Part shown: piece after piece, positions 1,315 to 54,950 of the stretch | Layout: every line of letters begins with the position of its first letter | Numbering within the stretch: position 1 is the first letter of the stretch | The notes under the pieces: generated by a model | Told to the model about the DNA's origin: nothing | Databases searched by the model: none | What the model saw: the letters and a program-made list of their open reading frames with translations, nothing else | Assembly (NCBI RefSeq): GCF_000614185.1 | Contig: NZ_BAKM01000012.1 | Location: 62,001-126,000, forward strand | Reading direction: 5' to 3' | DNA length: 64,000 nucleotides | Source: Phocaeicola sartorii JCM 17136 = DSM 21941 | GTDB taxonomy: Bacteria > Bacteroidota > Bacteroidia > Bacteroidales > Bacteroidaceae | Made by a program: the position numbers and the translations under genes

Positions 1315-3991
1315 CTACTTCTTTTCACCGAAGTCGGCCTGCTGTTTTTCCACTTCCTTCAGCTTTTGTGCATTCCGTTCTTTCAGCAGACGTTCCTGCT
1401 CCAGTTCAGAAGCCGATTTGGCAGCTGATTGTCCGAACGGTGAGCCGCTGCTCATGGGGATCAGCGCAGCTTCGTTTTCGGCATAGATGAGAGGATGCGC
1501 CGCCGGCTTGCTTTCTAATTCTAGAACTGCGCTGGCGGGCATTTGCGAGCCTTCGAACAATACGCTGGCAGTGAGTTTGATTTTACCCGGTTTCAGGGTG
1601 GATTGTATCAGCACGGGGGCTGTTCCCCATTTTACCGGAGCCGGATTGGCCAGTATATCCGCTCCGCCCAGAATGCGTCCTTCTCCTTCTATATGGAATT
1701 TCACATAATAGTTGTTCAGGCGTTTGATATTCCCGTTTTTATCGGCTATGGCGGCTACCACGGTTACAAAGTCGGAACCGTCGGCTTTCAAGTCGGTATT
1801 TTCGTTGTCAATCCATAGCAATAGTTTTTCGGGGCGCCGGGCCGGTCGTACTTCGTGCGTGGCGACTACTTTTCCGTCTATGATGCCTTCGGCCAGCAGG
1901 AACACCTCGTCCTGTTTCTTTTCTCTCATAGACATGTTCTTGTCTATCATAAAGTCGTATGTATCTTTGAAGGTAATGACAGGCGAGGGCATTCCTTCTT
2001 TGGTTGCCGGTTTGGTGTAAGTCCATGTCTTTCCATCTTTATTATAGGTAAGCCGCACCTCGTCGCAATTGGAGTAAACAGTGATGGCTTTGGGCGAGAA
2101 GGGAGTCATTTCATGGGCGATGTACACCATCGGCCCTGTTTCGAAAAGGCGGTCTTGCTTTTCGGGCGAACGCTGGGCTTTGAACATGTAATAAGCATAT
2201 TTGGGCTGACGGAATACATCCATCACACCACCATAGAAGGGGTCGGGATGATAGCCGCGCTGATGGTCGAACGAGTGCCACAGACAGCCACCGACGTGCT
2301 GGCGCGGGGCGCGGCAGAGTACATCATAACTGGTGAAAGGATAATGGGGTGCGGCATAGTGCTGTGCCTGGATGAGCATGGCCTGTTCGCCCCAGTTGCG
2401 TGCCACACGGCTGGGGGAGTTGTGCGAGTTCCAGTCGTCTACATTGTCTCCCCACTCACGGGTGAAATAGGTTATTTCAGGATCAAGGCTTTTGATGGCC
2501 TCGTCCTTTTCCGCATTGGCCGGATGAGTGAAGAGTACCGGATATACCTCATGTCCCCGCGCCCTGCTGTCGCAACCGGAGTAGCAATAGGGATAAGGAT
2601 ATTCTTGACTGACAATATCGAGGGTGTTCTTGGCGAAGTCCGCCGGATACCAGGTCTCATTCAGAATAGGTTCCCATAACCATACACAGGGGTGGTTGCG
2701 GTCACGCCTTACCAGGTTGCGGATATCGTTATAGACCGTTGTGCAAATTCGGGAGCGTCATTCCAGAATTGCCATCCCGGCGTATTCACAATGACGAATA
2801 GGCCCAGTTCGTCACACGCATCCATAAAGGCGGGGTCTTGGGGGCAGTGGGCGTTGCGGATGATTTTCAGGCCCGCATCGCGCAGTTTCTTGGCATCGCG
2901 CCAATGGATGCTGTTGGCTACGGCATTGCCTACCACGGCGAAATCCTGATGGCGGTTGGCGCCGATCAGCGGAGCGGGATAGGGCTTGCCGTTCAGCCAG
3001 AATCCGTCCTTGCCTTTGAACTCTACGCTGCGGATGCCGATGCGGCGGCGGTAGCCGTCCACCACATTTCCCTCGTTGTTGCGGATGCGGACAATCAGGT
3101 TGTATAGGGTAGGCGTTTCGGGGCTCCAAAGCAGGGGGGACTTCAATGTAATTTTATCTTTGGAAGTGACCGCTTTGCCTGGGCGCACCTGAATGACATC
3201 GTTCAGAAATGCGGCTTGTGTGCCGTCGGGTTGCTGAAGTTCATATTCTACTACGCCTTTGAAATTCTTTTTGCTGTCGTTACGTATATGGGCTTTCAAG
3301 ATGATTTCTGCGGAAGTGTCGGATACTTTGTCGTATGCCACAAAAAGCCCGCCGCCTGCTGTTTCGTTTTCGAAATTGGGGTCGGTGATGAAGACCGGGT
3401 TATGGGCTATCAGCCAACAGTCACGGTAGATGCCGCCGAAGTAAGTATAGTCCAGCACATCCTGTGCCTTGCCGGGAGGGTAGCTGGGGTCGTTGCTGTT
3501 GTCTGTCCATACGGCTATCACATTGTCCGTCCCCCAGTTCAGTGCATCGGTGACCTCAACGACTACAGCAGATAGCCGCCAAAGTGTTCGGTCAATAAAT
3601 TACCGTTTACGAAGATTTTACTTTTCCCCATGATGGCCTCGAAATGCAGGAAAAGCTTTTTGCCTTTCAGCGTGTCCGCCGGAGTGAAATGCTTGCGGTA
3701 CCACGCCTCGCCTTGATAGTTGATACATCCGCTGGCCTCGGTCGGCACATATTCAATGCCGTCGGGCAGGGAGACCACTCTCCAGTCCCGGTCGTTAAAG
3801 TCTGGAGCTTCCGCACCGGTTGCGGCTCCTTTATGGAAACGCCATGCCGGATTCATGGAATATACTTCACGCCCGGAGTTTGCCAGTTCATAGAATCCGG
3901 CAGTGGAGAATTCGGGCTGGTGGGCTGCCTGTATCTCGTACAGAGGGAGGAATAGTAAAGCGATGAGATAAGAAAAGATGTTTTGTTTCAT
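1315..3991 (-). CDS. GH2 family glycosidase, beta-galactosidase-like (two frameshifts)
   Basis: A secreted glycoside hydrolase family 2 enzyme of about 892 residues once two single-base gaps are restored. The start at 3991 gives a signal peptide (MKQNIFSYLIALLFLPL). Next come the sugar-binding beta domain (WRFHKGAA, EAWYRKHF, FEAIMGKSKIFVNG), an Ig-like domain, and the TIM barrel with acid/base Glu in ILNETW and nucleophile Glu in FTREWG. A C-terminal Ig-like region follows. Breaks lie near 3570 (GGYL to VVVEVTDALNWG) and near 2746 (EFAQ to TVYNDIRNLVRRDRNHP). All catalytic residues survive. It probably releases terminal galactose or a related sugar from glycans in the periplasm; the substrate cannot be told from sequence. 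Confidence 0.85.
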
Positions 3992-4023
3992 GGTCGTATG
4001 TGTCTTGAAAATTAAATAAAAAT

Positions 4024-11175: not shown

Positions 11176-12492
11176 TTATTTTAATTTCGTATCACGGTTA
11201 AAGCGCAGGTAATAGAGTATTCCCGCTGTAGTCAGCCCGAAGGGGAATGCCATCCATATTCCTATGATCCCCCAGTCCATGACGAAGCCGAAGAAATAGC
11301 CGGCCGGCAGGGAGATAAGGAAATAAGCGATGAATGCGATATACATCATGGGTTTCACATCTGCGATTCCGCGGAGGGCATTGGCGAAATTTATCTGTAA
11401 TCCGTCACCAAACTGGTAGATGATGAACGGAATGATAAGTTGTGCTACCATCACGCTGACCGCCGGACTATCGCTGAACCATCCGCCCAGTTCGTTACGC
11501 AGCAGGAAGATGGGCAAGGCTCCTATCAGTGCGATGAGCAGCATGATATGGAATCCGGCGTATGCCGAGCGTCTGACGTTCATCCGGTCGTTTTGTCCGT
11601 GGAAATTACTAACCCGCACGGCAACGGCGGCTCCCATGCCATAATACATCATAAAGCAGATTTGGGAGATGGCGAGCATCACCTGGTGTGCCGCCAGGGC
11701 GGTAGTCCCGATCCATCCCACCATGATGGCGCTGAGGCTGAACGAAGCGGTCTCCATTCCCATCTGCATGGCAATGGGCCATCCCAGTTTGTTCAAGTGG
11801 AGGAAGTCCGCCCGGTTGAGCGCATGGTGCAGGAATCCTTCTTTATAAATATGATAACGCCGGGTACCGAAAAAGATGGCGGCGAATACGATCACCATCA
11901 TGATGCGGGAGGCCAGTGTGGAGATTCCCGCTCCCAGCAGTCCCATTTCGGGCATTCCCAGTTTGCCGTAGATCAGAATGTAATTGCCGATGATGTTCAT
12001 CACATTTCCCGCCAATAAGATCCACATGGAGACGCGGGTATCGGTTATGCCGTCGGCAAATTGCTTGAAGCCGTTGAAAAGCAACACAAACAACAGGGAG
12101 ATCAACAAAACGATGAAGTAGGGACGCATCAGGGGCAGCAGTTCCTCGGGCTGTCCCAGCCGGTGGATATTCAGGTAGAGTATCCACATGATGAGCGTGA
12201 GCAATACCGCCAGCAGTGTATTGGCAAACAGGCTGTTCTTCAGCATCCGTCCCACGACATTGGTTTCCCCCCGTCCGAACAGGCTTCCTACGACAGGGGT
12301 CAGCCCGTACGAGAATCCGGTAGCGAAAATAATGGCCAGGGTAAACATGTTGTTGACAAAACTGGCGGCGGCCAGCTCGTTCGTACTGTGATGGCCTATC
12401 ATCAATGTATCGGCAAAACCCAGAATGATGACGCCTATCTGGCCGATTACGATGGGGAGGCCTAAAGAGAAAAGTGTTTTATAATGTTGCAT
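11176..12492 (-). CDS. MATE family efflux transporter
   Basis: 438 residues and about twelve hydrophobic segments, the normal size for a MATE antiporter that exports drugs or metabolites against Na+ or H+. The start LFSLGLPIVIGQIGVIILGFADTLMIG is typical of NorM/DinF proteins, as is GMGAAVAVRVSNFHGQND. It lies between an M16 peptidase and the hybrid kinase. The very short gap to the kinase suggests co-transcription, and perhaps control of export by the two-component system. The substrate is not predictable. Confidence 0.9.
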   Translation of the reverse strand: MQHYKTLFSLGLPIVIGQIGVIILGFADTLMIGHHSTNELAAASFVNNMFTLAIIFATGFSYGLTPVVGSLFGRGETNVVGRMLKNSLFANTLLAVLLTLIMWILYLNIHRLGQPEELLPLMRPYFIVLLISLLFVLLFNGFKQFADGITDTRVSMWILLAGNVMNIIGNYILIYGKLGMPEMGLLGAGISTLASRIMMVIVFAAIFFGTRRYHIYKEGFLHHALNRADFLHLNKLGWPIAMQMGMETASFSLSAIMVGWIGTTALAAHQVMLAISQICFMMYYGMGAAVAVRVSNFHGQNDRMNVRRSAYAGFHIMLLIALIGALPIFLLRNELGGWFSDSPAVSVMVAQLIIPFIIYQFGDGLQINFANALRGIADVKPMMYIAFIAYFLISLPAGYFFGFVMDWGIIGIWMAFPFGLTTAGILYYLRFNRDTKLK

Positions 12493-15051: not shown

Positions 15052-16275
15052 ATGAAACAGACGGATGTAACGGTTACGTTCTACCTCAAAAAGAGCGAAA
15101 TGAATGACGAGGGACATTGCCCGGTCATGGCGAAACTTACTGTCGGCAAATTTTCAGAAGCGGCTTTTAGCGCGAAAATGTCCGTACCCGCTGCCCTGTG
15201 GGCATCCGGACGTGCCACGGGTAAAAGTAACGCCGCGCGGGAAATCAACCGGCAACTGGACGATTTGCGAGCTTCAGCCATTTCCATTTATGATGAGCTG
15301 TCAGCCACCCGTGAGAATGTAACGGCTGAAGAAATAAGGAATCTGTTGTTGGGGACGGCTTTCGGGCAGGAAACCCTGTTGGGTTATTTCCGGACGTTCA
15401 TCGAACATTTCGAAAAACGTGTCGGCGTGAACCGGGAAAAGGGAACAGCGCAATCTTACCGCTATGCTTGTAACTGTGTGGCTGCTTTCATCCAGGAGAA
15501 ATACAAGTTGTCGGATGTCTCTTTCACGGCTCTGAACCGTTCATTCATCGACAACTATGACCTCTACCTACGCACGGAGCGCCGCTTTGCCCCGGGAACT
15601 ATCGTGTTGCTTGTCACACGGTTGAACACGATTGTCGGGGAAGCCATCGCGGAAGGGATTATCACTGCCGACCCGTTCGCGGGGTATGAAGCCGAACGCC
15701 CCGAGAGGGAGCAGAAATACCTTACCGCCGCGGAGTTACAACGGCTGATGACCACACCCCTGCACGACCCGAAACTCTACCATATCCGCGACCTGTTCCT
15801 CTTCTCCTGCTACACGGGTATCCCTTACGGGGACATGTGCCGTCTGACGGTGAAGGATCTGGAAGTGGCAGAGGATGGTGAGGTATGGATCAAGACCGCC
15901 CGTAAGAAGACGAAAATCGACTATGAAGTGCCGTTGCTCGACATACCGTTGCTCATCCTCGACAAATACCGGGATATGGCTCCGGAAGGAAAACTGCTGC
16001 CGATGTACAGCAACAACGAACTCAACCGGACACTGAAACGTATTGCCGCCATTTGCGGAATTGAACGGAAACTCGTCTTTCACTGCGGACGCCATACCTA
16101 CGCCACCGAGATCACGCTTTCGCATGGTGTCCCGCTTGAAACCGTCAGTAAAATGCTGGGGCATAGCCGCATTTCCACGACGCAGATTTACGCCAAAGTG
16201 ACCGATGACAAGATCGACATGGATACCCGGTCTTTAGAGGAAAAGATTGCCGGCCGCTTCTCGGTAGCTATTTAA
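15052..16275 (+). CDS. Tyrosine recombinase/integrase 1 of the ICE
   Basis: 407 residues: an N-terminal arm-binding domain, a phage-integrase SAM-like domain (about 105-200), and a C-terminal catalytic domain. Catalytic residues visible are HCGRH (H-x-x-R), LGHSRISTTQ and nucleophile Tyr in IYAKV. The first conserved Arg, normally in TGxRxSE, is replaced: the segment reads YTGIPYGDM. The same loss is known in IntDOT-type recombinases. It should cut and rejoin the ICE ends. A second paralogue follows after 31 nt, and both may be needed. Confidence 0.9.
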   Translation: MKQTDVTVTFYLKKSEMNDEGHCPVMAKLTVGKFSEAAFSAKMSVPAALWASGRATGKSNAAREINRQLDDLRASAISIYDELSATRENVTAEEIRNLLLGTAFGQETLLGYFRTFIEHFEKRVGVNREKGTAQSYRYACNCVAAFIQEKYKLSDVSFTALNRSFIDNYDLYLRTERRFAPGTIVLLVTRLNTIVGEAIAEGIITADPFAGYEAERPEREQKYLTAAELQRLMTTPLHDPKLYHIRDLFLFSCYTGIPYGDMCRLTVKDLEVAEDGEVWIKTARKKTKIDYEVPLLDIPLLILDKYRDMAPEGKLLPMYSNNELNRTLKRIAAICGIERKLVFHCGRHTYATEITLSHGVPLETVSKMLGHSRISTTQIYAKVTDDKIDMDTRSLEEKIAGRFSVAI

Positions 16276-16306
16276 TCTATCATTGACAATCAAATTCACA
16301 ACGACT

Positions 16307-17596
16307 ATGGAACCGAATAATAAAGAGATAAAACGCCGCAGCACGTTCTCCCTGCTGTTCTACATCAACCGCACGAAAGTCCGCAAGGACGGAACATGTA
16401 AATTGTTATGCAAGGTAAGCATCGACGCCAAATCGGCCCCGATCAACATCAACGCGTTTGTCGATCCATCGCTCTGGAATCCGGAAAGCAAAAGGGCGAA
16501 CGGACGAAGCGAGAACGCCCGAACGGTAAACCTGGCAATAGAGAAACTGACCGAAAAAATCACCGGACATTACCGCCATATTCGTAAAAGCCTCGGTTTC
16601 GTGACGGCCGAGCTGGTCAAAAACGCCGTGGAAGGAATCGGGCAGAAACCGTTCACTCTCCTTGCCTTGTTCCGCGAGCATAACGAGGAGTTCCGCAAGC
16701 GTGTCGGCGTGGATCGCAAGGAAGAAACCTATGAAAGTTACGAGAACTCCTATAATATTTTAGCCTCCTTCGTGAAAAAAAGGAAGGAAAAGGAGGATGT
16801 AGCGTTGCGGAGTCTTGACCGGGAGTTCTACGATGATTTTGAAATATTCCTGCGTACAGATCGTGGAATGAAACCCAAGACAGTACACGAGCATCTCTAC
16901 CGGTTGAAGAAAATGACCAAGCGGGCTGTCAGTCAGGGCACACTCCGGCGCGACCCTTACGGGAAGCTGCACCCGGAACTGCCCCGGCGCAAGAGCCGCC
17001 ATTTGAAGCTCGAAGACCTCAAAAAGCTGATGGAAACTCCCGTCGATAAACCCAATCTTCAGCGGGTGCGGGACTGGTTTCTCTTCGCCACCTTCACGGG
17101 GTTGTCCTACGCCGACCTGAAACGCTTGTCCGAAAAAGACATCACGCAATCGGACGACGGAACGTACTGGATACACATCCGGCGCCAGAAGACCGAAACG
17201 CCCTCGGCCATCCGCCTGCTGAACGTGCCGTTGCAGATCATCGAGAAATACCGCCACGAGCGTAGAAGCGACAGGATTTTCAACCTCTATTGCCGGAGGT
17301 ATCTCATTAAGCTCACCAGAGAACTGGGACGGACATACGGCTTCGACATGACATTTCACCAGGCGAGGCACAATTTCGGGACACATATCACGCTCTCGCT
17401 GGGTGTGCCTATCGAAACCGTCAGCCGCATGATGGGACACAAGAGTATTTCCACCACGCAAATTTACGCCAAAGTGACCGACCGCAAGGTGGACGAGGAT
17501 ATGAAACGGCTGAAAGAACAGAGCAAAGGCCGGAAAATAAATCTCTACGAGGAGGACGAACCGGGAACGGAAAATATTATAACGGTAAACGGTTGA
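16307..17596 (+). CDS. Tyrosine recombinase/integrase 2 of the ICE
   Basis: 429 residues, the same architecture as the preceding recombinase. The ATG at 16307 is preferred to an upstream TTG because it opens directly into the conserved arm domain (RRSTFSLLFYINRTKVRKDG). Catalytic residues are FHQARH, MGHKSISTTQ and Tyr in IYAKV. The first Arg is replaced by Ser in FTGLSYADL, as in IntDOT. The C-terminal tail is Lys- and Glu-rich. It is probably co-transcribed with recombinase 1. Confidence 0.9.
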   Translation: MEPNNKEIKRRSTFSLLFYINRTKVRKDGTCKLLCKVSIDAKSAPININAFVDPSLWNPESKRANGRSENARTVNLAIEKLTEKITGHYRHIRKSLGFVTAELVKNAVEGIGQKPFTLLALFREHNEEFRKRVGVDRKEETYESYENSYNILASFVKKRKEKEDVALRSLDREFYDDFEIFLRTDRGMKPKTVHEHLYRLKKMTKRAVSQGTLRRDPYGKLHPELPRRKSRHLKLEDLKKLMETPVDKPNLQRVRDWFLFATFTGLSYADLKRLSEKDITQSDDGTYWIHIRRQKTETPSAIRLLNVPLQIIEKYRHERRSDRIFNLYCRRYLIKLTRELGRTYGFDMTFHQARHNFGTHITLSLGVPIETVSRMMGHKSISTTQIYAKVTDRKVDEDMKRLKEQSKGRKINLYEEDEPGTENIITVNG

Positions 17597-45473: not shown

Positions 45474-45518
45474 TAATGTCCGGCAGCGTTCCACTTAAAG
45501 CGGTAGTGCTGTTTGTTT
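45474..45518 (-). repeat. attC-like hairpin R1
   Basis: 45 nt of the GGCAGCG subtype: stem CAGC..CC.CTT / AAG.GG..GCTG, ends TAATG and TTGTTT. It lies 30 nt past the stop of the lipoprotein gene and 20 nt before the next start. Confidence 0.75.
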
Positions 45519-45547
45519 TCTAAATCTTCGTGTCTTTATTAGCAAAA

Positions 45548-46054
45548 TCAAGGCACTATTTCGTAAATGGTCCGGTCACTATTTTTGAAAATGGTCTGCT
45601 CAATCTGTCTGCCGACCTTTACGATACTATCTATGTCAGCATGAACTTTCAGGCTGATAACAGGTGCATATTTCAGATGTTCGTAATCGACTGGAGTATT
45701 GTTATAGGTCGTTTCGACAATAGGATAATTATGTTCCTTTGCAAACTGCTTCAAGGTATCTATGTAGGGAAGCTGCTCTTTACACATAGCTTCAAAATCT
45801 ATGTAAAACTTTCCGTTCTCCAGCACAAAATAGATGCAGTCCACACCATTAGAACAAATGCCTATAAAATCATAATCTGTTTTTCCTGCCTGCACGTTTC
45901 TCAACACATCCGGCAGTTTGTCTATCGTAATCTGGGCAGCAACCGGAATATTAGAGTTTATACCGTCGTTTTGCGTTACTCGTTTATTTCCATGCCCGCA
46001 ACTCAATAAACTCAAGATAGAAGTAAATATTCCCATAATTTTTAAGTATCTCAT
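45548..46054 (-). CDS. Array cassette: lipoprotein of unknown family
   Basis: 168 residues with a lipoprotein signal (IFTSILSLLSC). The domain ISLKVHADIDSIVKVGRQIEQ and TIYEIVP is not recognised. Repeats R2 (upstream) and R1 (downstream) bracket the gene. Start 21 nt after R2. A periplasmic immunity protein is a reasonable inference from neighbours. Confidence 0.65.
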   Translation of the reverse strand: MRYLKIMGIFTSILSLLSCGHGNKRVTQNDGINSNIPVAAQITIDKLPDVLRNVQAGKTDYDFIGICSNGVDCIYFVLENGKFYIDFEAMCKEQLPYIDTLKQFAKEHNYPIVETTYNNTPVDYEHLKYAPVISLKVHADIDSIVKVGRQIEQTIFKNSDRTIYEIVP

Positions 46055-46074
46055 AATTTTATGCTTATTGCGGA

Positions 46075-46121
46075 TAATGTTTGGCAGCGTTCCGCTTATT
46101 CAGTCGGTTTGCTGTTTGTTA
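46075..46121 (-). repeat. attC-like hairpin R2
   Basis: 47 nt, identical to R7 and R8. Stem CAGC/GCTG and CCG/CGG. Coding-strand ends are TAACAAACAGC and CAAACATTA. Confidence 0.85.
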
Positions 46122-46133
46122 GCAGTTTATTTT

Positions 46134-46607
46134 CTAAATATCCTTTAACTTGTTATTCATTTCTTTCCTATACAGAATTGAACTAAAAGGATAAATATTA
46201 TTAAGTTCCGGTTTTTCTCCATATAGTTCAATTATCCCGTCTATTGATTCTAATTTTTGTAAAATGGGCATTGAAATATTTATGATATTTTCAATTAACC
46301 GTGAACGCAACTGTTCATCAATAGTCGATTCTAAATCTAATATCATTTGTGTGGAATACCCTTCAATTTCCATTATTGGGAAGCGCATTCTAATATCACA
46401 TTGATATTCTTTAGGAAACAATAAATCATCTCCTTTACGTAATAAAGCCGCTAAGTTTATATAAAACATCTTTCCATACAAAGAGTGTTGGAGATTGAAT
46501 ACGACTATACATTCGGCAGTAGTCTTATACCACGAATTTCCTTTTCTACGAAAGCTATTCGCTTTCATTAATGGATGAACTATTGATTTGAATTGCTCTT
46601 TATCCAT
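46134..46607 (-). CDS. Array cassette: DUF4304-like immunity protein
   Basis: 157 residues. MDKEQFKSIVHPLMKANSF, RRKGNSWYKTTAECIVVFNL and QHSLYGKMFYINLAALLR match the DUF4304 pattern, a family common as toxin-immunity or orphan immunity genes. Cytoplasmic. Start 21 nt after R3; stop 13 nt before R2. Confidence 0.7.
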   Translation of the reverse strand: MDKEQFKSIVHPLMKANSFRRKGNSWYKTTAECIVVFNLQHSLYGKMFYINLAALLRKGDDLLFPKEYQCDIRMRFPIMEIEGYSTQMILDLESTIDEQLRSRLIENIINISMPILQKLESIDGIIELYGEKPELNNIYPFSSILYRKEMNNKLKDI

Positions 46608-46627: not shown

Positions 46628-46673
46628 TAATGGGTTGTAGCTTACCGCCGTTAGGCGGAATAGGTGCTTGTTA
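46628..46673 (-). repeat. attC-like hairpin R3
   Basis: 46 nt, a divergent member: stem CCGCC-GTTA-GGCGG with AGC/GCT outside it, ends TAATG and TTGTTA. Primary sequence differs but structure and ends are kept. Confidence 0.75.
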
Positions 46674-46682
46674 CCCACATAT

Positions 46683-47765
46683 TTATTCTTTGTTTTTTCG
46701 ATTTATTTGTATATCACTTATTTCTGATTTTCCGCCAAAACAGCGTAATTCTTCTACATTCGGATTATCCAATACTGCATATACAGATTCTTTTGTCATA
46801 CTTTTAACGCCTAACATAACTACCTTTCTCAACTTTTTAGCATTTACGAGACTTGAAATATCAACCAATCTATTTAAGGTGTCAATATAAACTTCAGCCA
46901 ATTCATTTAGATTGGCTAAGTTTGGCATCTTAGTGATATTAGCCAACCAAATCAATTCGAGCTTTTTAAGTCCGATAAGAGTACTGACAAATGAAATATC
47001 ATCCAATTTGGATATTCTAAAAAGTTTCAGTTGGCGCAAACTTCTAAAATCACTCAAAACAGTCAAGTCTATTTTTGAACTATCACACCACAAAATCGAC
47101 AAGTCTTTAATAGACATCTGTTTTAAGAATGACAAGTCCTTATTCTTGATAGCTCTTAGTTCTAACTTTTCCAACTGGCTTAAACCTACAATAACTTCAA
47201 GATTCTTATCTAATTTCCCGAGAAAAAGGGATTGCAGATTTTTGAGGTGTAAAAGCCATTGACAGTCAAACACAGGCTTGCCACTCTTCAAATCAGCATC
47301 TATATACAAGTGTTCCAATAGACTTGGCAATGTCTTGACAAAAGTAAAATCCCTTAAATCATAAATTTCCAATTTCAAGGATTTAATGTTAGATAAACTT
47401 GAAAGAATGGATAAATCAGTATTCTTATACTCAAAACCGTCTATTACGATATTCTGTACATCCGGAACAAATCGCAGGAAATCCAGATTCCAACCATTGA
47501 AATCATTCCCATATCCAAAGGTTTTATCAGCCCCTCCATATACACGAAAAGAAATATCAGGACGTGATATAAATATGCGATTCAACTTTTCGAGAACCGT
47601 ATTAGGAATATAATCGCTTATTTGAACTCTCTTTATAAGTTTCTCCTCGATTATTTGCTGAATTACGGATTCTGTCACATCTTCTGCCATGTAACCATCT
47701 TCGGGACGTCTTGGAATCCTTCCAAAACTGTGAGGAGTAAATATTTCAATTTGTGTTCTAAACAT
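46683..47765 (-). CDS. Array cassette: LRR-like protein A
   Basis: 360 residues from the ATG at 47765; a longer open frame only runs through R4. At least ten repeats of about 23 residues have the pattern LxxLxxLxLxxxxxxxF (LSNIKSLKLEIYDLRDF, LKNLQSLFLGKLDKNLE, LKKLELIWLANITKMP). Cytoplasmic, no enzyme motif. A second LRR-like cassette lies at 51,343. LRR proteins occur as immunity proteins in Bacteroidales. Confidence 0.72.
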   Translation of the reverse strand: MFRTQIEIFTPHSFGRIPRRPEDGYMAEDVTESVIQQIIEEKLIKRVQISDYIPNTVLEKLNRIFISRPDISFRVYGGADKTFGYGNDFNGWNLDFLRFVPDVQNIVIDGFEYKNTDLSILSSLSNIKSLKLEIYDLRDFTFVKTLPSLLEHLYIDADLKSGKPVFDCQWLLHLKNLQSLFLGKLDKNLEVIVGLSQLEKLELRAIKNKDLSFLKQMSIKDLSILWCDSSKIDLTVLSDFRSLRQLKLFRISKLDDISFVSTLIGLKKLELIWLANITKMPNLANLNELAEVYIDTLNRLVDISSLVNAKKLRKVVMLGVKSMTKESVYAVLDNPNVEELRCFGGKSEISDIQINRKNKE

Positions 47766-47784
47766 TCTTATATTATTATGTGGG

Positions 47785-47833
47785 TAATGTTCGGCGGATA
47801 ATCGACCTTTAAGGGAGATTAATCCGCTTGTTA
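47785..47833 (-). repeat. attC-like hairpin R4
   Basis: 49 nt of the GGCGGAT subtype: stem GCGGAT/ATCCGC plus ATC/GAT, ends TAATG and TTGTTA. Confidence 0.85.
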
Positions 47834-47844
47834 GCAACCTATTC

Positions 47845-48462
47845 TTATTTATTTTTCACCTCATTCAACCATTTAGTAATCAATTTTTCAGAAGGTGTCT
47901 TTGCTGTCCTATCAGTGTATGAAAAGAATTTAGTTACAAAAGGCATGAAAAATTTTTCTCCATCTGGTGTTAAATCGTTCCGACGAAATTCAAGTTTTAT
48001 AATTCTACCTTTTGTATCTATTGGACGATTTTTCAAAAAACCATTATCCCAACAAGAAGATAATAAAACAACGAACTCATCATATAATCGTTCAATGTGC
48101 TCCATATATAGCCTATTTACCGTAAAAATATATGAAAAATCGCACATTAAATCCTGCCAAGAATGTAATTCATTATAAGTTTCTTTGAATAACTTGGAAA
48201 GCAAGCCTTCGTCATCTGTATTTTCTACCAATATGAAATCCTTTTCTCCCGGCAGATTTTTATATGGGCGGCATATTGGGGCGTCTGGTAACAGCTCTTT
48301 GGCTTTATTAGTAAGTAAAAGATAACATTGATTCTGATACAAGACACCTATTTTCTTCCCATTCAAATGAATAATAAATTCATCAAAAATAGGTTCGAGC
48401 ATTACGTTGTATATTGCTCGCGTTTGTTTCTCAATATAATTTGCATATTTTTTTGTTGTCAT
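47845..48462 (-). CDS. Array cassette: protein with TfoX-N-like domain
   Basis: 205 residues. Residues 20-100 (FDEFIIHLNGKKIGVLYQNQ, YLLLTNKAKELLPDAP, CRPYKNLPGEKDFILVENTD, DEGLLSKLFKETYNEL) have the order of motifs of TfoX N-terminal domains. The second half is helical and unrecognised. Start 24 nt after R5, stop 12 nt before R4. The match is by eye and modest. Confidence 0.55.
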   Translation of the reverse strand: MTTKKYANYIEKQTRAIYNVMLEPIFDEFIIHLNGKKIGVLYQNQCYLLLTNKAKELLPDAPICRPYKNLPGEKDFILVENTDDEGLLSKLFKETYNELHSWQDLMCDFSYIFTVNRLYMEHIERLYDEFVVLLSSCWDNGFLKNRPIDTKGRIIKLEFRRNDLTPDGEKFFMPFVTKFFSYTDRTAKTPSEKLITKWLNEVKNK

Positions 48463-48485: not shown

Positions 48486-48534
48486 TAATGTTTGACGGAT
48501 AATCGCCATTTCAAGGCGATTTAGTCGTATGTTA
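48486..48534 (-). repeat. attC-like hairpin R5
   Basis: 49 nt. Stem ATCGCC/GGCGAT with GAC..TA/TA..GTC outside it; ends TAATG and ATGTTA. Sequence differs from R4 but paired positions co-vary. Confidence 0.8.
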
Positions 48535-48538
48535 TCGT

Positions 48539-48826
48539 TTATTTCAATTTAGTAAGTTTTTCATACTGATAAGAAACATCAAGAAGTTTATTTACCAACT
48601 CATCTCCAAGCCAACAATCTATTAGATATTTTCCATAGCTTGGTGTAAACGAGTAAATATCTTTATCAATCGCATTGATCATATTTTCCAAGTCTTTTTG
48701 TACATTATGTAATGCACCATCAGGAAGAGAAGTCTTCCTACATTCAAAAGGTTGCGCTAATATTCTTTTTACATCATCAAGTATATTCACACAACAACTT
48801 TTTACTGTTTCTTTTCTACTTACCAT
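48539..48826 (-). CDS. Array cassette: small helical protein
   Basis: 95 residues, no signal peptide or known motif; SCCVNILDDVKRILAQPF and DLENMINAIDKDIYSFTP suggest helices. Start 10 nt after R6, stop 5 nt before R5. Unknown; immunity inferred only from the array. Confidence 0.55.
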   Translation of the reverse strand: MVSRKETVKSCCVNILDDVKRILAQPFECRKTSLPDGALHNVQKDLENMINAIDKDIYSFTPSYGKYLIDCWLGDELVNKLLDVSYQYEKLTKLK

Positions 48827-48835
48827 ATTAAACGA

Positions 48836-48883
48836 TAATGTTCGGCGGATAATCGACCTTATGGGAGATTTATCCGCTTGTTA
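48836..48883 (-). repeat. attC-like hairpin R6
   Basis: 48 nt, nearly identical to R4 (GCGGATAA/TTATCCGC). The preceding cassette's stop codon (48,859-48,861) lies inside this repeat. Confidence 0.85.
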
Positions 48884-49323
48884 GATGCACTTACTTTTTT
48901 TGTTTCTGATATTATAAGTTTATTAAATTCAATTTTTAGGGAGTTGCTATCAAAGATAAACTCCATACGAAATAAATCGTTTTTCAAAATCTCAAATTGA
49001 AAGGCAATCAAATCAATATTCTTTATAAGAGAATTTTGTTTGCCAAAATCAATTTTTGAAACTCCATGAAATCGGAAACTAAAAATTCTATCTGAATAAG
49101 GGCCTTCCAATTTAATGATGGCACATTGACCTTTCTTTGTTAGATTACTCCTAACATCTAAAAGAATACTATCATGTAGTGTTGTGCTATCAGATAGCGA
49201 ATAGCGAGAATAATCGGTTAGAAATCCACGAATTTCAACCGGTATTTCTTCAAGGTGCTTATTCAAGTAATCAAAATACTCATCAAAACACCAACTGCCA
49301 TTTTGGAATTTTATTATATTCAT
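48859..49323 (-). CDS. Array cassette: hypothetical protein ending inside R6
   Basis: 154 residues from the ATG at 49323, 17 nt after R7 as for its neighbours; an earlier ATG at 49338 almost touches the repeat. Mixed alpha/beta, FDEYFDYLNKHLEEIPVEIR and IIKLEGPYSDRIFSFRFHG. Its last residues (NKRINLP) are encoded by R6, so the repeat supplies the stop. No family is recognised. Confidence 0.55.
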   Translation of the reverse strand: MNIIKFQNGSWCFDEYFDYLNKHLEEIPVEIRGFLTDYSRYSLSDSTTLHDSILLDVRSNLTKKGQCAIIKLEGPYSDRIFSFRFHGVSKIDFGKQNSLIKNIDLIAFQFEILKNDLFRMEFIFDSNSLKIEFNKLIISETKKVSASNKRINLP

Positions 49324-49339
49324 TTTTGTTTCGTGCATC

Positions 49340-49386
49340 TAATGTTTGGCAGCGTTCCGCTTATTCAGTCGGTTTGCTGTTTGTTA
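49340..49386 (-). repeat. attC-like hairpin R7
   Basis: 47 nt, identical to R2 and R8. Confidence 0.85.
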
Positions 49387-49406: not shown

Positions 49407-49754
49407 TTATAAAAGCATAAATTCACTTGCTTCTACGTCAATAGCCCTGCAATTCCAATGCGAGCATAATTGTTTCACGAAGTGAAAGACTGTTTCTTCA
49501 TTTTCACCTCCATGAAAACATAGGTGTATATTTTCAATACTTTCATTATCGTCCCAAGAAATCTCTACGCCACACTCATTGTCTAATTGCAGTATCATTG
49601 TGCTATCCGACAAATTATCATCAGAAATAAGAAAGGTGTTCTGCATCCAATCCACAAACGCATTTCTATCTGTTATAGGCAATGTTTCATCTACATCCGA
49701 CAAATTGGATTCATCGTTCAAGGGCGTTTTTATTAAAATGATAGACCAACTCAT
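49407..49754 (-). CDS. Array cassette: small acidic protein
   Basis: 115 residues, strongly acidic (DESNLSDVDETLPITDRNAF, CGVEISWDDNESIENIHLCF). Acidic cytoplasmic proteins of this size are frequent nuclease inhibitors, but no family is recognised. Start 41 nt after R8, stop 20 nt before R7. Confidence 0.6.
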   Translation of the reverse strand: MSWSIILIKTPLNDESNLSDVDETLPITDRNAFVDWMQNTFLISDDNLSDSTMILQLDNECGVEISWDDNESIENIHLCFHGGENEETVFHFVKQLCSHWNCRAIDVEASEFMLL

Positions 49755-49794: not shown

Positions 49795-49841
49795 TAATGT
49801 TTGGCAGCGTTCCGCTTATTCAGTCGGTTTGCTGTTTGTTA
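49795..49841 (-). repeat. attC-like hairpin R8
   Basis: 47 nt, identical to R2 and R7. Confidence 0.85.
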
Positions 49842-49849
49842 CTAACGCT

Positions 49850-50731
49850 TTATTTTTTACTCCAATACTCTTGCATCCAACTTTCATATTCCAAAGGATA
49901 TATTTCATTGGCAGAATTTAGTTTATCATTGATATTCAATTTTCGTTTGGATTTAGCGGATTCTGTTTTCAGCAGGGAAAATCCTTCTATTAACTTTCTC
50001 GCATCATCTTTCAAACGAAACCACCTTTGCCAATCGTTTTTTGTCATTTCCGCTTCTCGTTGCTTCTTATATTCTTTACGTTTAGTCATCTGTTCTAATT
50101 GAAGCAAGAGATTTTCATCTGCAACAAACATTGGGACTTCTTGGAAAATAAGCAGATCAGAATAATGTTTAGATAAAACGTCTTTAGCCTTTTCACTAAC
50201 ATAAATTTCAGAGCAGAAGTCGTAAAAAATCCTATCAATGAAAATATCTAATCCTGAAAGGCTTTGTTCTACTAACTTGGCAGAACTACGTTCTTGCTCG
50301 CAATAAAGTAGTCCGTCCTTTTGAGGTATCAACGCAAATAAATTTCCTATTTGTTCCGCTACCGCCTCGTTATGCTTGCGCCGTGTAATATATTCTTCCG
50401 CATCCATACTTCCAGACGGATATACCAGAGGCTCAGGTGCTTGTAAATCCCAGTTCTCCCAATCCAATTTCACAATCTTTTCCTTGCTCGCTGGTTGAAG
50501 AACAAAGCCCGTAAGATTTGCTTCTGTAATATACTGTAAAACATTCTCTTTGACAATTAACACAGGGCTTTCTCTATTATATTGAGAGCGGTAGATAGAG
50601 GGACAAAACGCTCCCGTTCTAAAAACCATGTGAGAATTTGTATCTTTATCATAGCCGTAAATGCCTTGCCATAGCATTTCACCATAACTACCCCAAGGCA
50701 TTATTTTATTTTTTACAGTATAATATTTCAT
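49850..50731 (-). CDS. Array cassette: hypothetical protein, 293 aa
   Basis: Starts MKYYTVKNKIMPWGSYGEML. Central helical region (HNEAVAEQIGNLFALIPQKD) and a basic, coiled-coil-like C-terminus (QMTKRKEYKKQREAEMTKND). No signal peptide, no known family. Start 24 nt after R9, stop 8 nt before R8. Confidence 0.6.
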   Translation of the reverse strand: MKYYTVKNKIMPWGSYGEMLWQGIYGYDKDTNSHMVFRTGAFCPSIYRSQYNRESPVLIVKENVLQYITEANLTGFVLQPASKEKIVKLDWENWDLQAPEPLVYPSGSMDAEEYITRRKHNEAVAEQIGNLFALIPQKDGLLYCEQERSSAKLVEQSLSGLDIFIDRIFYDFCSEIYVSEKAKDVLSKHYSDLLIFQEVPMFVADENLLLQLEQMTKRKEYKKQREAEMTKNDWQRWFRLKDDARKLIEGFSLLKTESAKSKRKLNINDKLNSANEIYPLEYESWMQEYWSKK

Positions 50732-50754: not shown

Positions 50755-50803
50755 TAATGTTCAGCGGCTAACCGACCTTTCGGGGAGGTTAAGCCGCTTG
50801 TTA
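50755..50803 (-). repeat. attC-like hairpin R9
   Basis: 49 nt. Stem GCGGCT/AGCCGC and AACC/GGTT. Against R4 both halves of two base pairs have changed together, preserving the stem. Confidence 0.85.
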
Positions 50804-50808
50804 TAAAC

Positions 50809-51303
50809 CTATTTGAAATTTGTCAGTATATCCTCTTTCTCATTAGAAGACAACATTTCCAACAAATGATTGAAGCTATCACAAACCATTTCTGCCGATT
50901 CCTCAAATTCCGGTTCAACTCCGTAATAGATTTTACCATAGTTTTCTGGCGACAAATCTATGCTCAAATATCGGTATCCGTCTTTTACAGACATAAGAAT
51001 TGGGATATGATTATCCCAGAATTGGCGAATCATATCGCAGGATTCCTCGTCATCTTTCAATGCATCAAGCCCCATTAGCTCAAATTCGTTCCAACGGAAT
51101 CCGCTATCGCTTTCTCCGTTAAAGTCCTCTATGGAATTAAACCAAACATTATCACTTTCATTCGTGATTGTCTGAAACCGTTGCAAAAACTCCTGATACT
51201 CCACAGGAAGTTCGGAATACCGATTCTGTAAATCAGAGCTTAATTCTTTTCTTTCCAATCGTTCTGTAACGACGAATCCTATATTTTTCAGTGCTTCAAT
51301 CAT
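50809..51303 (-). CDS. Array cassette: SMI1/KNR4 (SUKH) family immunity protein
   Basis: 164 residues. LSSDLQNRYSELPVEYQEFL (LPxxYxxFL motif), NVWFNSIEDFN and the acidic end HIPILMSVKDGYRYLSIDLS fit SUKH proteins, one of the most common immunity folds in polymorphic and type VI toxin systems. No toxin gene is near. Start 17 nt after R10, stop 5 nt before R9. Confidence 0.78.
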   Translation of the reverse strand: MIEALKNIGFVVTERLERKELSSDLQNRYSELPVEYQEFLQRFQTITNESDNVWFNSIEDFNGESDSGFRWNEFELMGLDALKDDEESCDMIRQFWDNHIPILMSVKDGYRYLSIDLSPENYGKIYYGVEPEFEESAEMVCDSFNHLLEMLSSNEKEDILTNFK

Positions 51304-51319: not shown

Positions 51320-51365
51320 TAATGTTTGGTGGCTAACTTACTTTAAGATGTTAAGCCATTTGTTA
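51320..51365 (-). repeat. attC-like hairpin R10
   Basis: 46 nt. Stem TGGCT-AAC / GTTAAGCCA; ends TAATG and TTGTTA. The LRR-like cassette's stop codon (51,343-51,345) lies in its loop. Confidence 0.8.
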
Positions 51366-52203
51366 TCCGCATCTTATTTATTTGTTCCAAAGTATGACTG
51401 TAATGTCTCTTATTTGGATAAAAATAAATTCGACATGGAATATGAATTAGCGGTTCTAAATTTCCGTCTATACAATTCCAAAAAGAGAATTTTTCAAGAT
51501 TTGACATAGACGAAATAAATCCAAGATTAGTTATCTTTTCTACAAACAAGTTTCGAATGGTTTGATTTCCTTGTAAAAAAGAAAAATTAGCTAATTGCAC
51601 ACATTTTTCTATGTGCAATTTTTTAAGGTTTGCGAGTTTGCTTATAGAATCCACATCTATAAGTTTACGACAATACAGCAGATCCAGTCGTTCTAAATTT
51701 CTAAATGCTTCAATACCTTTCAAACTTGTAATTCTCCCTCCACATATTCGTAGTGTTTCCAAGTTTCGCAAATTTTCAAGATGTGTCAAATCCTGATGTG
51801 TTGTAGAAGTCATCAATAAATCTCTTAGATTTATCAATGCCTCTATATTCTTTAATTTATTATCACCAGTGAAATAAAGTGTTTTCAGGTTGCTGAATTG
51901 CAACAGATCCAACTTTATTGGTTGGTCGATACTTAAATATTCAAGATTGCGCAAAGTGTATAAAGCATCAACATTAAGAATTTTCTTAATTAAAAAACAA
52001 TTTCCGATTATTAGTTTTCTAACAAATAGTCTGTCTGCAAAATCAGAAAAATCCAAAATATACCGTTCACCAACATTATGATTTAGACAACGAATCCGTA
52101 ATGCCGTATATCCATTCTTCTCCGCATACGCCAAACCATCAGATAGTGCTGTTGGGTCTATCTCAAAAAAATCTATTGCACTGTTATAACTATATTTTTC
52201 CAT
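51343..52203 (-). CDS. Array cassette: LRR-like protein B
   Basis: 286 residues from the ATG at 52203 (MEKYSYNSAIDFFEIDPTAL), 21 nt after R11; a longer frame would run through R11. Repeats such as LRNLEYLSIDQPIKLDLLQ, LRNLETLRICGGRITSL and LANLKKLHIEKCVQLANF are leucine-rich. The final residues come from R10, which provides the stop. A second LRR-like cassette is at 46,683, but the N-termini differ. Confidence 0.72.
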   Translation of the reverse strand: MEKYSYNSAIDFFEIDPTALSDGLAYAEKNGYTALRIRCLNHNVGERYILDFSDFADRLFVRKLIIGNCFLIKKILNVDALYTLRNLEYLSIDQPIKLDLLQFSNLKTLYFTGDNKLKNIEALINLRDLLMTSTTHQDLTHLENLRNLETLRICGGRITSLKGIEAFRNLERLDLLYCRKLIDVDSISKLANLKKLHIEKCVQLANFSFLQGNQTIRNLFVEKITNLGFISSMSNLEKFSFWNCIDGNLEPLIHIPCRIYFYPNKRHYSHTLEQINKMRITNGLTS

Positions 52204-52223
52204 ACTTTTTATATTACTGCGGA

Positions 52224-52271
52224 TAATGTTTAGAGGATAACCGACCATTTAGGGCGGTTCATCCTTATGTT
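52224..52271 (-). repeat. attC-like hairpin R11, atypical outer end
   Basis: Stem AGGAT-AACCG / CGGTT-ATCCT and TAATG end are kept, but the outer end reads ATGTTCG instead of TTGTTA. It is the repeat nearest the transposase and recombinase, so it marks the array start or an insertion junction. Confidence 0.7.
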
Positions 52272-52494
52272 CGAGACAATTTTTCTTTTTTCTTTCTTTA
52301 ATTACATATTATATAGAACTTCAATTTTTAACCGCAGTTCCTGACAAGAAGAGGTGTGAAGTTCATGTCTGCACTCCGTTCGTTTTCTTACTGCTCTTAT
52401 CCGTATTTCACTCATTTTTCGGTTCTCCTTTCTTTCGTTTTATGGGATTTTTCTGTTTCTGTTCACGGCAGGGCATAGCTATCCCATGTTGCTG
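52272..52494. other. Gap between R11 and the IS91 transposase
   Basis: AT-rich, no gene. It would hold one end of an IS91-type element; no typical terminal inverted repeats are expected or seen. Confidence 0.4.
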
Positions 52495-53718
52495 TCATGC
52501 CGCTTTTTTCCGGTGTATGTCGCAATGCTCCAGTACAACCGTGTATGTCATGCCGCCACCCGTTACCGTGGTGTGGCTGTAAACTCTCATTCGTCCGCAA
52601 CATTCGCAGAAATACGGGTTTTCATACCCGCTTTCTTCCTGATGCAGCCCGGCTTCCTCAATCTCGTTTTCATCCCGTCCGAAGTATTCTTCCGGCAGGT
52701 TGCCTTTGTTGGAATAGAAGCCGTAGTACCTCACGATGCGGAAATAGCGCAGGGGGACGTGTTGCAGCAACCGGGGGAAGAACTCACGATAATGCAGCGT
52801 CAGTTCCTTTTCCACAGGGTTTCTCCTGTCGGGCGAATTTTTATAATCACGGTAGCGGAATGAAATGTTCTCGCCGTCCATTGCCGTAATCTTGTACTCG
52901 CTCAGACACGCCCGTTTGGAATACCTGCCTACATACTGTATCACCTGCTCCGGCATCTGTATAGGTGGCTCCAAATGCACAATCCAGTCCTTTTTGTTCG
53001 CCACCTTTTTGATGAAGCCCATAAACTCCATGCGGTCGTGGAAATCATGCTCCAGCCTGCCCGTGTCGAACAGTTCTATCAGCGCATTTTCAAACTTGTA
53101 GCGGAACACCCTGCGGATAGAGGGGATATGCACGTAGTCATGTTCAGGAATGACTATCTTGCCGCCGCTGTCGATGCCGCCCCACGACATAATCGTGTGC
53201 GTGTGTACATGAAACTGTTTTGTTTCCCCGTAGGTATGCAGCACGGCAATCACCCCGGTTTTCAAGCCGAACTTGTGCATCATCCAGTCTTTCAGGGTGT
53301 CTGCCGAAGTACGCATCAGGATGTTCAGCATCTCTTTCTTGTTGCGCTTCACCAAATCCAACAGGATATGCGGCAAGGTCATGACCACGTGGCGGTGTGG
53401 AACTCGCAACATCTTTTCTTTCATGCGTGCCGCCCATTTGAGCGTGTCACGCCAGCCGCATGACGGACAGAAACGGTGTTTGCAGCTATGGTAGATTTCC
53501 CAGACTTCGCCACATTCGGGGCAGGCATAGGTATCTATCCCCAAAGCGGCGGTACGGCATACACGGATAGCGTTTGCCGCCTTGTATTGTTCGGGGGTGA
53601 TATACTCTGCCGGATACCGGGCGTACTCGTCCCACCACCGATTGAAAAAATCGGACAAGCGGTACTTTTTTACCTCGCAACCGTCTGTGTATATGTCATT
53701 TAACGTCTCTGCCATCAC
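52495..53718 (-). CDS. IS91/IS801-family transposase
   Basis: 407 residues. The N-terminal zinc finger is YACPECGEVWEIYHSC with CPSCGWRDT. The HUH motif FHVHTHTIMSWGG is near residue 175, and the Tyr-containing segment PEQVIQYVGRYSKR is in the catalytic domain. A second Cys cluster (FCECCGRMRVYSH) is near the end. These are all typical of rolling-circle IS91 transposases. It is read toward the cassette array. Full length, no frameshift. Confidence 0.9.
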   Translation of the reverse strand: MMAETLNDIYTDGCEVKKYRLSDFFNRWWDEYARYPAEYITPEQYKAANAIRVCRTAALGIDTYACPECGEVWEIYHSCKHRFCPSCGWRDTLKWAARMKEKMLRVPHRHVVMTLPHILLDLVKRNKKEMLNILMRTSADTLKDWMMHKFGLKTGVIAVLHTYGETKQFHVHTHTIMSWGGIDSGGKIVIPEHDYVHIPSIRRVFRYKFENALIELFDTGRLEHDFHDRMEFMGFIKKVANKKDWIVHLEPPIQMPEQVIQYVGRYSKRACLSEYKITAMDGENISFRYRDYKNSPDRRNPVEKELTLHYREFFPRLLQHVPLRYFRIVRYYGFYSNKGNLPEEYFGRDENEIEEAGLHQEESGYENPYFCECCGRMRVYSHTTVTGGGMTYTVVLEHCDIHRKKAA

Positions 53719-53832
53719 TTGCGCTTAATCTCTTTTTTAGCTCGATTTTAGTGTTTAACTATCTGATTATTAGTTGTTTATTGTCTTGAACATTATACTA
53801 TCAGCCGATTTGGCTGTTATTTTCTTCGAGTA

Positions 53833-54950
53833 TCAGACCTCGTCTTCCTCCATCAACAGGTCGTCCAACGGGCTTTTGATATTGCTTTTGAAAGTGTCGG
53901 CTATGTGAACATACCTTTCCGTTGTCTTGATATTGTTATGTCCCATAAGCTCTTTCACAATCTTGATGTCGGTTCCTTGCTCCAGCAGGTGAGTGGCGAA
54001 CGAATGGCGTAGCAGGTGTGGATAAATCCGTTTCGTGATTCCCGCTTCCCGAGCCGCAGCTTCAACCGTTTCGACACGATACTCTCGGTGAAAGGTTCTC
54101 CCGGTCTGTGTTCAAAGAGCCACACTTTCGGTTTATATAGCCTGTTATATTCCGTCAGTTTTTTCATCAACGGTTTTGACAGCAGGGTGTAGCGGTCTTT
54201 TTTCCATTTACCCTGCCGCACCCGTATCAGGGAGCGGGATTCGTTGATGTCGCCGGGTTTCAGTTCCAGCAGCTCGCTGATGCGGAGTCCTGCGGAATAG
54301 AGTATGGAGAACATGCAGAAGAAGCGCAGGTCTGTCACCGTCACGTCGAGTATCTTCTTTATTTCTTCCTTGCTCAACACGTCGGGCAGCGTCTTCTCCC
54401 GTTTGGCACGGTTCACCTTGTAACATCGCCGTTCCTGGCCGAGAACTTTCTCGTAATAGAACTTGATGGCGTTGATACGCTGGTTTTGTTGGCAGGAGGA
54501 TATGTTTTTCTCGTGGATGAGATACAGCAGGTAGGCGTTTATCTCGTCCGGGGTAACCGTCTCAATCTTACACCCCTCGAAATATTGTTGGAAATCGCGG
54601 AAATACGAGGTATATACTCTTACGGTGTGATCGCTGTAACGTACCTGCTGGAGTTTTTCCAGATAACCTTTCGGCAGCGATGGCCGCTTGTCTTCCTCTT
54701 TTCGTGGAGCGGTTTCTTTTACGGCCGAATAGTCGATAAACGCCATTTCCACATAGCGGTCGAAGAACTCGGCAAGCACGAAATTCTCTGCCGGCAGATA
54801 AGCCTTACCACCGACAAGCTCTACATTTTCTTCCTTTGATAATGACAAGCGGATGTCATTGTCATTGCCGAAAGTCACTTCTACAAACTTTCTCCCGTTT
54901 CTTATCACCGGAGAAAGTTTGATTTTGTTTTTTGGGGTGTATATTTCCAT
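53833..54950 (-). CDS. XerD-like tyrosine recombinase (frameshifted)
   Basis: 372 residues after restoring one base near 54,057, where IVSKRLK continues as AAAREAGITKRIYPHLLRHS. The N-terminal core-binding domain (HTVRVYTSYFRDFQQYFEG) is followed by a catalytic domain with all residues: Arg in AGLRISELLEL, HLLRHSFATH, MGHNNIKTTERYVHI. In contrast to the two ICE integrases the first Arg is kept. It ends PLDDLLMEEDEV. It lies upstream of the immunity array in the same direction and is the obvious candidate to recombine the repeats. Confidence 0.85.

Follow-up and report, generated by a model that had tools for sequence, protein, structure and literature searches.

In a 64,000-nucleotide stretch of the draft genome of Phocaeicola sartorii JCM 17136 (contig NZ_BAKM01000012.1, positions 62,001 to 126,000; assembly completeness 91.68, contamination 5.48), hereafter the window, a XerD-like tyrosine recombinase gene is followed on the minus strand by an IS91-family transposase gene and then by an immunity-gene array of ten small genes with 11 repeats. 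All of these are co-oriented, and a first-pass annotation had correctly placed the transposase between the recombinase and the array; it asked whether the XerD-like recombinase, the IS91 transposase, or both move the cassettes. By comparing related loci (L numbers) and genomes (G numbers), we found that the recombinase is very probably the integrase of the array and the enzyme that moves its cassettes, the IS91-like gene being itself one of them. Judged from sequence, the array resembles in its workings an integron whose integrase is a XerD-like recombinase, with the IS91-like gene as a passenger or helper cassette; by the features tested, it is an array of the recombinase-associated acquired interbacterial defence (rAID) type and not an IntI integron.

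In the mechanism that we propose, each cassette ends in an attC-like hairpin, which the recombinase would recombine with an attI-like site just past the recombinase gene, and cassettes would be inserted singly at attI, with the crossover at or inside an (A/G)TT. A free circular cassette would bring its first bases onto its own repeat, to which they are complementary, giving a long hairpin with a cassette-specific arm sequence; recognition would then be by structure, on the folded single strand, as in integrons. The attI-like site was located past the recombinase stop, where the window and its relatives L091 to L096 (type-A loci) have a small hairpin in common and agree in sequence as far as ATAAC(A/G)TT or ATAATGTT. 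Beyond the (A/G)TT these loci diverge, because different first cassettes come next. The crossover lies at or inside this final (A/G)TT, and we set the unit border between 53789 and 53788. Most type-B loci, whose recombinase is 44 to 48% identical to that of the window, have by eye a different attI-like stretch that ends in (A/G)TT as well, except for L108, where none is visible by eye.

A repeat search found the 11 attC-like repeats of the window (R1 to R11), and a covariance model built from them, applied to 31 sources (568,604 bases) at E up to 0.5, detected 142 sites in 26 of them, the 11 training sites of the window included. Within each source all sites share the strand of the recombinase or transposase. 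In the window, the bases past each crossover are complementary to the bases preceding the AAC of the cassette's own repeat, with 7 to 10 unbroken pairs in nine cassettes and, in the transposase cassette, 8 pairs within the first 9 positions (still 8 within the first 10), the second position being mismatched. The summed score of 75 was reached by 0 of 100,000 permutations. R2, R7, and R8 have identical 45-base cores and differing outer arms, each fitting its own cassette. The rule was also seen in 90 neighbouring site pairs, from which we had dropped the duplicate loci L111, L114, L117, and L116 (one hit of the last was kept) and any pair whose spacing fell outside 150 to 2,600 bases: the first 8 bases matched the own repeat at 6.96 of 8 positions on average versus 3.52 for other repeats, the match was at least 6 of 8 in 83 pairs, and the summed match was reached by 0 of 20,000 permutations.

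The folding of these sites was then compared in the two states. Sites R2 to R11 modelled as circles fold at z -3.9 to -7.5, and the integrated sites at -0.8 to -3.0, a predicted difference that would favour integration over excision. The bottom strands of R11, R8, and R4, the three examined, each form a single long stem with a three-base bulge. Since the arms pair yet differ in sequence, the likeliest reader would be an enzyme that sees shape. RNAalifold on the repeats returned four pairs only, and Rfam had no family covering them.

Cassettes also recur as copies in new surroundings. Among 81 cassettes of seven arrays (window, L092 to L094, L096, L101, and L115), we found 25 copy pairs with at least 80% identity over 90% of the length, 22 of them above 95%; some pairs lie inside one array (L094). 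Both neighbours were unrelated in 21 of the 25 pairs and one side was unrelated in the other 4, and in most pairs the identity of about 1.0 within the cassette drops to about 0.3 in the neighbours. Arrays with copied cassettes include those of genomes free of such a transposase at E 1e-20 (G548, G552).

The check proposed by the first-pass annotation, a comparison of the recombinase's companions across loci, was carried out on 60 genomes of the genus: 11 hold recombinase and repeats, 2 repeats only, 1 recombinase only, and 46 neither (p = 2.6e-9). The transposase occurs in 4 of the 60 genomes and is absent from 9 of 12 recombinase genomes and 10 of 13 repeat-bearing ones. Locus by locus, it is missing from the examined flanks of 16 of 20 recombinase loci (the window and 19 loci with flanks out of 22 hits, G327 and G575 being left out). 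The recombinase goes with the repeats and mostly without the transposase; many recombinase-transposase pairs without repeats, which would make the link to the array accidental, were not found among the loci examined for this lineage. An order-wide recombinase tally (288 of 295) is uninformative on arrays because it includes ordinary Xer proteins.

The transposase itself is a member of the IS91 family: it matches NF033538 at 310.5 bits (cut-off 125) and Pfam Y2_Tnp and Zn_Tnp_IS91, the gene looks intact, and the letters HVHTH and YVGRY are present, which we take to be the motifs of IS91-family (HUH, Y2) transposases. No PDB relatives were found at E 0.01. Its gene is nevertheless a cassette, usually adjoining attI, and is unneeded for array building in the genomes that lack it. 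In the window, its unit opens at the attI crossover and closes with R11. A scan of genome contigs gave ten loci with a transposase at 76 to 92% identity (L111 to L119 and L137), which yield 11 rAID-type units with both flanks (window and a tandem pair counted; L119 is cut, and the repeat model had no match in it). On the left, nine units adjoin attI, each as the first cassette past it, and two adjoin attC; on the right, every one of the 11 closes with an attC-like site (weakest match, E 0.051). One of the nine attI sites, that of L113, has diverged by eye. In L098 (the same as L116, Phocaeicola intestinalis) two units stand in tandem and their junction is the crossover. Another of the nine attI sites, that of L137 (Bacteroides oleiciplenus), stands without a recombinase, and tandem partial repeat copies lie behind the transposase there (11220-11560).

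The recombinase gene of the window is interrupted. Its open frame covers 54950-53955 (331 amino acids) and contains the first catalytic arginine (AGLR), whereas HxxR/H/Y is encoded in a different frame, which ends at 53833, the shift being near 54,060; the full catalytic set noted in the first-pass annotation is present in the DNA but not in one frame. The interruption may be a natural lesion or an error of sequencing or draft assembly. The closest relatives, L091 to L094, have one intact frame of 372 amino acids and are about 95 to 96% identical over the first 297 residues. In its own genome the recombinase gave one full match and four weak ones, and the transposase one match. In two species (L112, near 3957-4000, and L117/L099) the recombinase is cut at the same place; these loci retain its C-terminal part, attI, and the transposase cassette, and the joins have TTCTGTTC in common.

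The intact relatives L093 and L106 score under the NCBIfam cut-offs for integron integrase, XerA, XerC, and XerD. Unlike integron integrases, L093 reaches only 203 bits against TIGR02249 (cut-off 265) and has 15 residues in the stretch ahead of the second catalytic block where IntI4 has 58, so that the IntI-specific insertion is absent. In an IQ-TREE phylogeny of 68 proteins, rAID-type array recombinases form a group of 21 (support 99) that includes the window protein, and recombinases directly preceding IS91-like transposases form a separate group of 23 (support 91). This was a quick search with some long branches, made without duplicates or proteins of less than 230 or more than 479 amino acids and with the first 297 residues of the window protein. 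In the kept columns of the tree the recombinases of L092, which has the transposase, and of L093 and L094, which do not, are identical; therefore, the transposase gene comes and goes as a cassette.

The first-pass annotation had suggested that an IS91 element carrying the recombinase landed at the first repeat, in which case the recombinase would belong to the insertion sequence and be unrelated to the array. Within the order, pairs of a recombinase and an IS91 transposase are indeed common (24 of 27 loci whose transposases have roughly 30% identity), but the position of the window recombinase apart from the IS91-linked group, the 16 of 20 loci without a transposase, and the attI-like crossover that separates the two genes make this origin extremely improbable. 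A transposase-only element inserted by its own mechanism at a GAAC in the first repeat is also unlikely. IS91 elements insert next to GAAC or CTTG, and GAAC/GTTC does occur at both unit ends, together with short terminal inverted repeats (CAAGACAAT/ATTGTCTCG) and an intact-looking transposase; the stem of R11 is preserved, and the outer end of this repeat is GTTC, or GAAC when read along the array strand, as had been noted. However, this GTTC is not an IS91 target: it arises from the first base of the cassette, since on the left (A/G)TT is followed by C and on the right G by AAC, and inverted repeats of this sort are expected of every cassette under the own-arm rule. In many distant relatives GTAC takes the place of GAAC, all 11 units have attI or attC on their left, and the duplicated units of L098 and Draconibacterium include the attC-like repeat. 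Unlike an IS91 element, the mobile unit is bounded by att crossovers, which were found at the ends of 11 of 11 rAID-type units and of the Draconibacterium unit, with no GAAC/CTTG target rule seen. The landing of an IS91 at R11 likewise finds no place, as the unit ends are the attI crossover (53788) and the end of R11 (52225).

It is very unlikely that the recombinase and the transposase form a joint machine that array building requires. That 9 of 11 transposase cassettes are first past attI, that a conserved motif (motif A) lies behind the transposase gene, and that elsewhere IS91-like genes are paired with their own recombinase would fit such a machine, but large arrays exist in genomes without such a transposase at E 1e-20 (31 repeat hits in G552, 19 in G630, and 13 in G600), and cassette copies in new surroundings occur in one of this kind as well (G548). 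The working module proposed in the first-pass annotation is not supported for this array; in a changed form it may exist elsewhere, with an own recombinase in 24 of 27 loci and an attC-like hairpin in two multi-copy cases. Cassettes might instead be exchanged without a dedicated enzyme, through homologous recombination of similar repeats, which would agree with the identical cores within one array (R2, R7, and R8). We consider it highly improbable all the same, for most copies have their break at the crossover, between repeats that differ (in 22 of 25 pairs the upstream attC sites are 0.21 to 0.64 identical, ungapped), and homologous exchange would neither create nor keep cassette-specific complementary arms.

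Several points weigh against the recombinase as the integrase of an integron-like array. The evidence is wholly comparative, and excision, circles, and integration events were not observed. The window's own recombinase is frameshifted, and therefore this copy may be inactive; the recombinase lacks the inserted segment of integron integrases, and therefore single-strand recombination is not certain. Repeat hits without a recombinase occur in G617 (four) and G616 (one weak), G258 has a recombinase without hits of the repeat model, and the model had no match in the type-B loci L103, L106, L107, and L110. The last of the 11 window cassettes (45474-46075) fails complementarity with R1 (10 of 11 fit), and R1 folds weakly (z -1.7 as a circle, -0.4 integrated). 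Seven of the 90 site pairs score below 6 of 8, and cassette copies were counted more than once in the 90-pair and cassette-copy tests. As for these cases themselves, G617 and G616 perhaps hold arrays cut off from their recombinase, repeats of another sequence type are visible by eye in G258 and in some of the model-negative type-B loci, and the last cassette is possibly a hybrid or a decayed array end.

More distant IS91-like transposases in Bacteroidota also appear, from their sequences, to have attC-like ends that travel with them and, often, a recombinase of their own. Those at 49 to 60% identity come from 17 loci (L120 to L136) in many Bacteroidota and a few metagenome-assembled genomes labelled otherwise. 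By eye, most have an attC-like hairpin running from an AAC box (often GTACAAC) to a GTT-type box; a few are cut by a contig end or unclear. In Draconibacterium orientale (L126) a 1,845-bp unit is present at two places, 99.9% identical and in both bounded by CCGTT. An automated paired-end search ranked the expected ends first in 9 of the 17 loci, and L124, L125, and L127 were added by eye. Locus by locus the search was mostly no better than shuffles (75/200 in L115 and 117/200 in L120, for example): only 6 of 34 scored units came at 10/200 shuffles or fewer, and two of these (L117 and L124) gave another pair than expected. Its support is the recurrence of the same letters at the same distance past the stop (196 to 218) in 9 of the 17 loci. 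Many of the 17 have by eye one of two unrelated small genes ahead of the transposase within the unit, one type bearing a CxxC-type motif; both are possible partners.

At roughly 30% identity, the recombinase lies directly upstream of the transposase in 24 of 27 loci, and two of the three exceptions have almost no upstream sequence. The paired-end search upstream of these pairs gave a GTT-GAAC start in 6 of 27 loci; six others had nothing to score, and the remainder look like chance. The pair is present in six copies in G217 and two in G007, with outer ends common among the copies, and in these multi-copy units (L145 to L149; L155 and L156) an attC-like right-end hairpin lies inside the unit. 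Five left flanks could be read in G217: three resemble the ends of other hairpins, two of these with z below -4 and one (z -0.6) only by eye, and the remaining two show no such resemblance. We do not claim an integrase-transposase fusion in G217, as the 684- to 688-residue open frame crosses an N at the junction. Motif A, past the transposase stop, passed its threshold (5/100 shuffles or fewer) in 15 of the 17 loci L120 to L136, in 10 of 19 recombinase-linked loci, and in 1 of 4 among L138 to L141, and its retention may point to a functional cis site. Motif B, likewise located past the transposase, was not general in the same sets (7/17, 2/19, and 1/4). For these counts a locus had to be free of N and to extend 300 bases or more past the stop, which left sets of 7, 17, 4, and 19.

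We tentatively raise the possibility, which we rate as less than even, that this Bacteroidota HUH lineage consists of attC-bounded cassettes, some with a XerD-like recombinase of their own, in which the HUH enzyme nicks and the recombinase inserts the strand. The transposase would nick near the cassette end and supply a single strand, and the folded strand would be inserted at attI or attC by a tyrosine recombinase, either the cassette's own or the host array's; the rAID transposase cassette would have kept the HUH half and would borrow the array recombinase.

Features of the window locus
Feature	Coordinates	Strand	Basis
XerD-like tyrosine recombinase gene, rAID type, frameshifted	53833..54950	-	Open reading frames (ORFs), profile searches, relatives, tree
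attI-like site, small hairpin then ATAATGTT	53789..53819	-	Common to L091-L096 up to (A/G)TT
Transposase cassette, 1,564 bp, attI crossover to end of R11	52225..53788	-	Flank comparison, repeat model
IS91-family (HUH, Y2) transposase, 407 amino acids	52495..53718	-	Profile matches, HVHTH and YVGRY motifs
Non-coding motif A, directly past transposase stop, possible transposase site	52469..52487	-	Counts on relatives, window excluded
Non-coding motif B, ahead of R11, retained in close relatives	52309..52324	-	Counts on relatives
attC-like repeat R11, part of transposase cassette	52225..52271	-	Repeat search, folding, covariance-model training
attC-like repeat R10	51321..51364	-	Repeat search and covariance model
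attC-like repeat R9	50756..50802	-	Repeat search and covariance model
attC-like repeat R8	49796..49840	-	Repeat search and covariance model
attC-like repeat R7	49341..49385	-	Repeat search and covariance model
attC-like repeat R6	48837..48882	-	Repeat search and covariance model
attC-like repeat R5	48487..48533	-	Repeat search and covariance model
attC-like repeat R4	47786..47832	-	Repeat search and covariance model
attC-like repeat R3	46629..46672	-	Repeat search and covariance model
attC-like repeat R2	46076..46120	-	Repeat search and covariance model
attC-like repeat R1, far end of array, mismatched to own cassette start	45475..45517	-	Repeat search and covariance model
Cassette gene, leucine-rich repeat protein; listed ATG within R11, internal start past crossover likelier	51343..52248	-	ORF, Pfam
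Cassette gene, SUKH (SMI1/KNR4) immunity-type protein	50809..51303	-	ORF, Pfam
Cassette gene, no Pfam match at E 0.01	49850..50731	-	ORF, Pfam
Cassette gene, no Pfam match at E 0.01	49407..49754	-	ORF, Pfam
Cassette gene, no Pfam match at E 0.01	48859..49338	-	ORF, Pfam
Cassette gene, no Pfam match at E 0.01	48539..48826	-	ORF, Pfam
Cassette gene, no Pfam match at E 0.01; similar gene behind L092 transposase cassette (by eye)	47845..48462	-	
Cassette gene, weak leucine-rich repeat matches; listed TTG precedes R4, internal start likelier	46683..47837	-	
Cassette gene	46134..46607	-	ORF list
Cassette gene; very similar gene is first cassette past attI in L100 (by eye)	45548..46054	-	

Pfam searches on eight cassette genes gave one SUKH-like protein, two with leucine-rich repeat matches, and five without a match, and PADLOC matched 0 of the 10 cassette genes. 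Away from this locus, the window holds two tandem integrase genes of the integrative and conjugative element (ICE) type at 15052-17596; by eye their usual arginine motif is altered, in agreement with the first-pass annotation.

Ross 2019 is the founding paper on rAID arrays. A rAID system is further characterised by a recombinase homologous to BF9343_RS08045 and by genes that protect against T6SS effectors. As in the arrays of Bacteroidales described under this name (PMC12247911, seen in part), a tyrosine recombinase lies in our locus upstream of at least two co-directional short genes of immunity type, SUKH included, with conserved intergenic motifs. According to the accessible part of this 2025 preprint, the biogenesis of rAID arrays is an area of active research (PMC12247911). 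A search of that text found neither 'integron' nor 'IS91', and an attI-like site, the own-arm rule, and a transposase cassette are not among the features it describes, as far as the text seen extends. Among the literature matches listed, in which subscription papers are thinly covered, we recognised no description of IS91-like cassettes or of attI/attC in rAID arrays.

The resemblance to integrons is considerable: an integrase gene beside an attI-type site, mostly one-gene cassettes that end in hairpin sites whose outer arm matches the own cassette start, and cassettes in new orders. In integron cassettes, the outer bases are complementary to the cassette's own start, a similar but shorter rule. 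In contrast to integrons, the sites here are laid out by eye as AAC, 2 bases, and stem on one side and stem, 5 to 6 bases, and (A/G)TT on the other. The inserted segment of integron integrases, which our recombinase lacks, is thought to have enabled single-strand recombination, according to the portions seen of two sources (PMC7790495, PMC9024848). Transposase genes inside cassettes have a precedent in the IS3 and IS911 elements within Vibrio cholerae integron cassettes (PMC11023631, seen in part). Unlike those, the transposase core and the cassette have both ends in common here, in many members of one transposase lineage, and a distinct insertion within a cassette is not visible.

The array anatomy identifies an attI-like site, places the crossover within about three bases, and yields an arm rule that nearly all cassettes follow, which makes the gain of immunity genes by rAID arrays directly testable. 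If the self-moving cassette exists, it could speed array turnover, and the whole would amount to an integron-like system that has its own helper for making single-stranded DNA and whose recombinase is without the integron-specific insertion; if the transposase does help, it would be the first helper of such a kind to our knowledge. Our findings further suggest that an annotated IS91 insertion can be a cassette and that, in gut Bacteroidales, integron-like cassette capture is carried out by a recombinase without the inserted segment.

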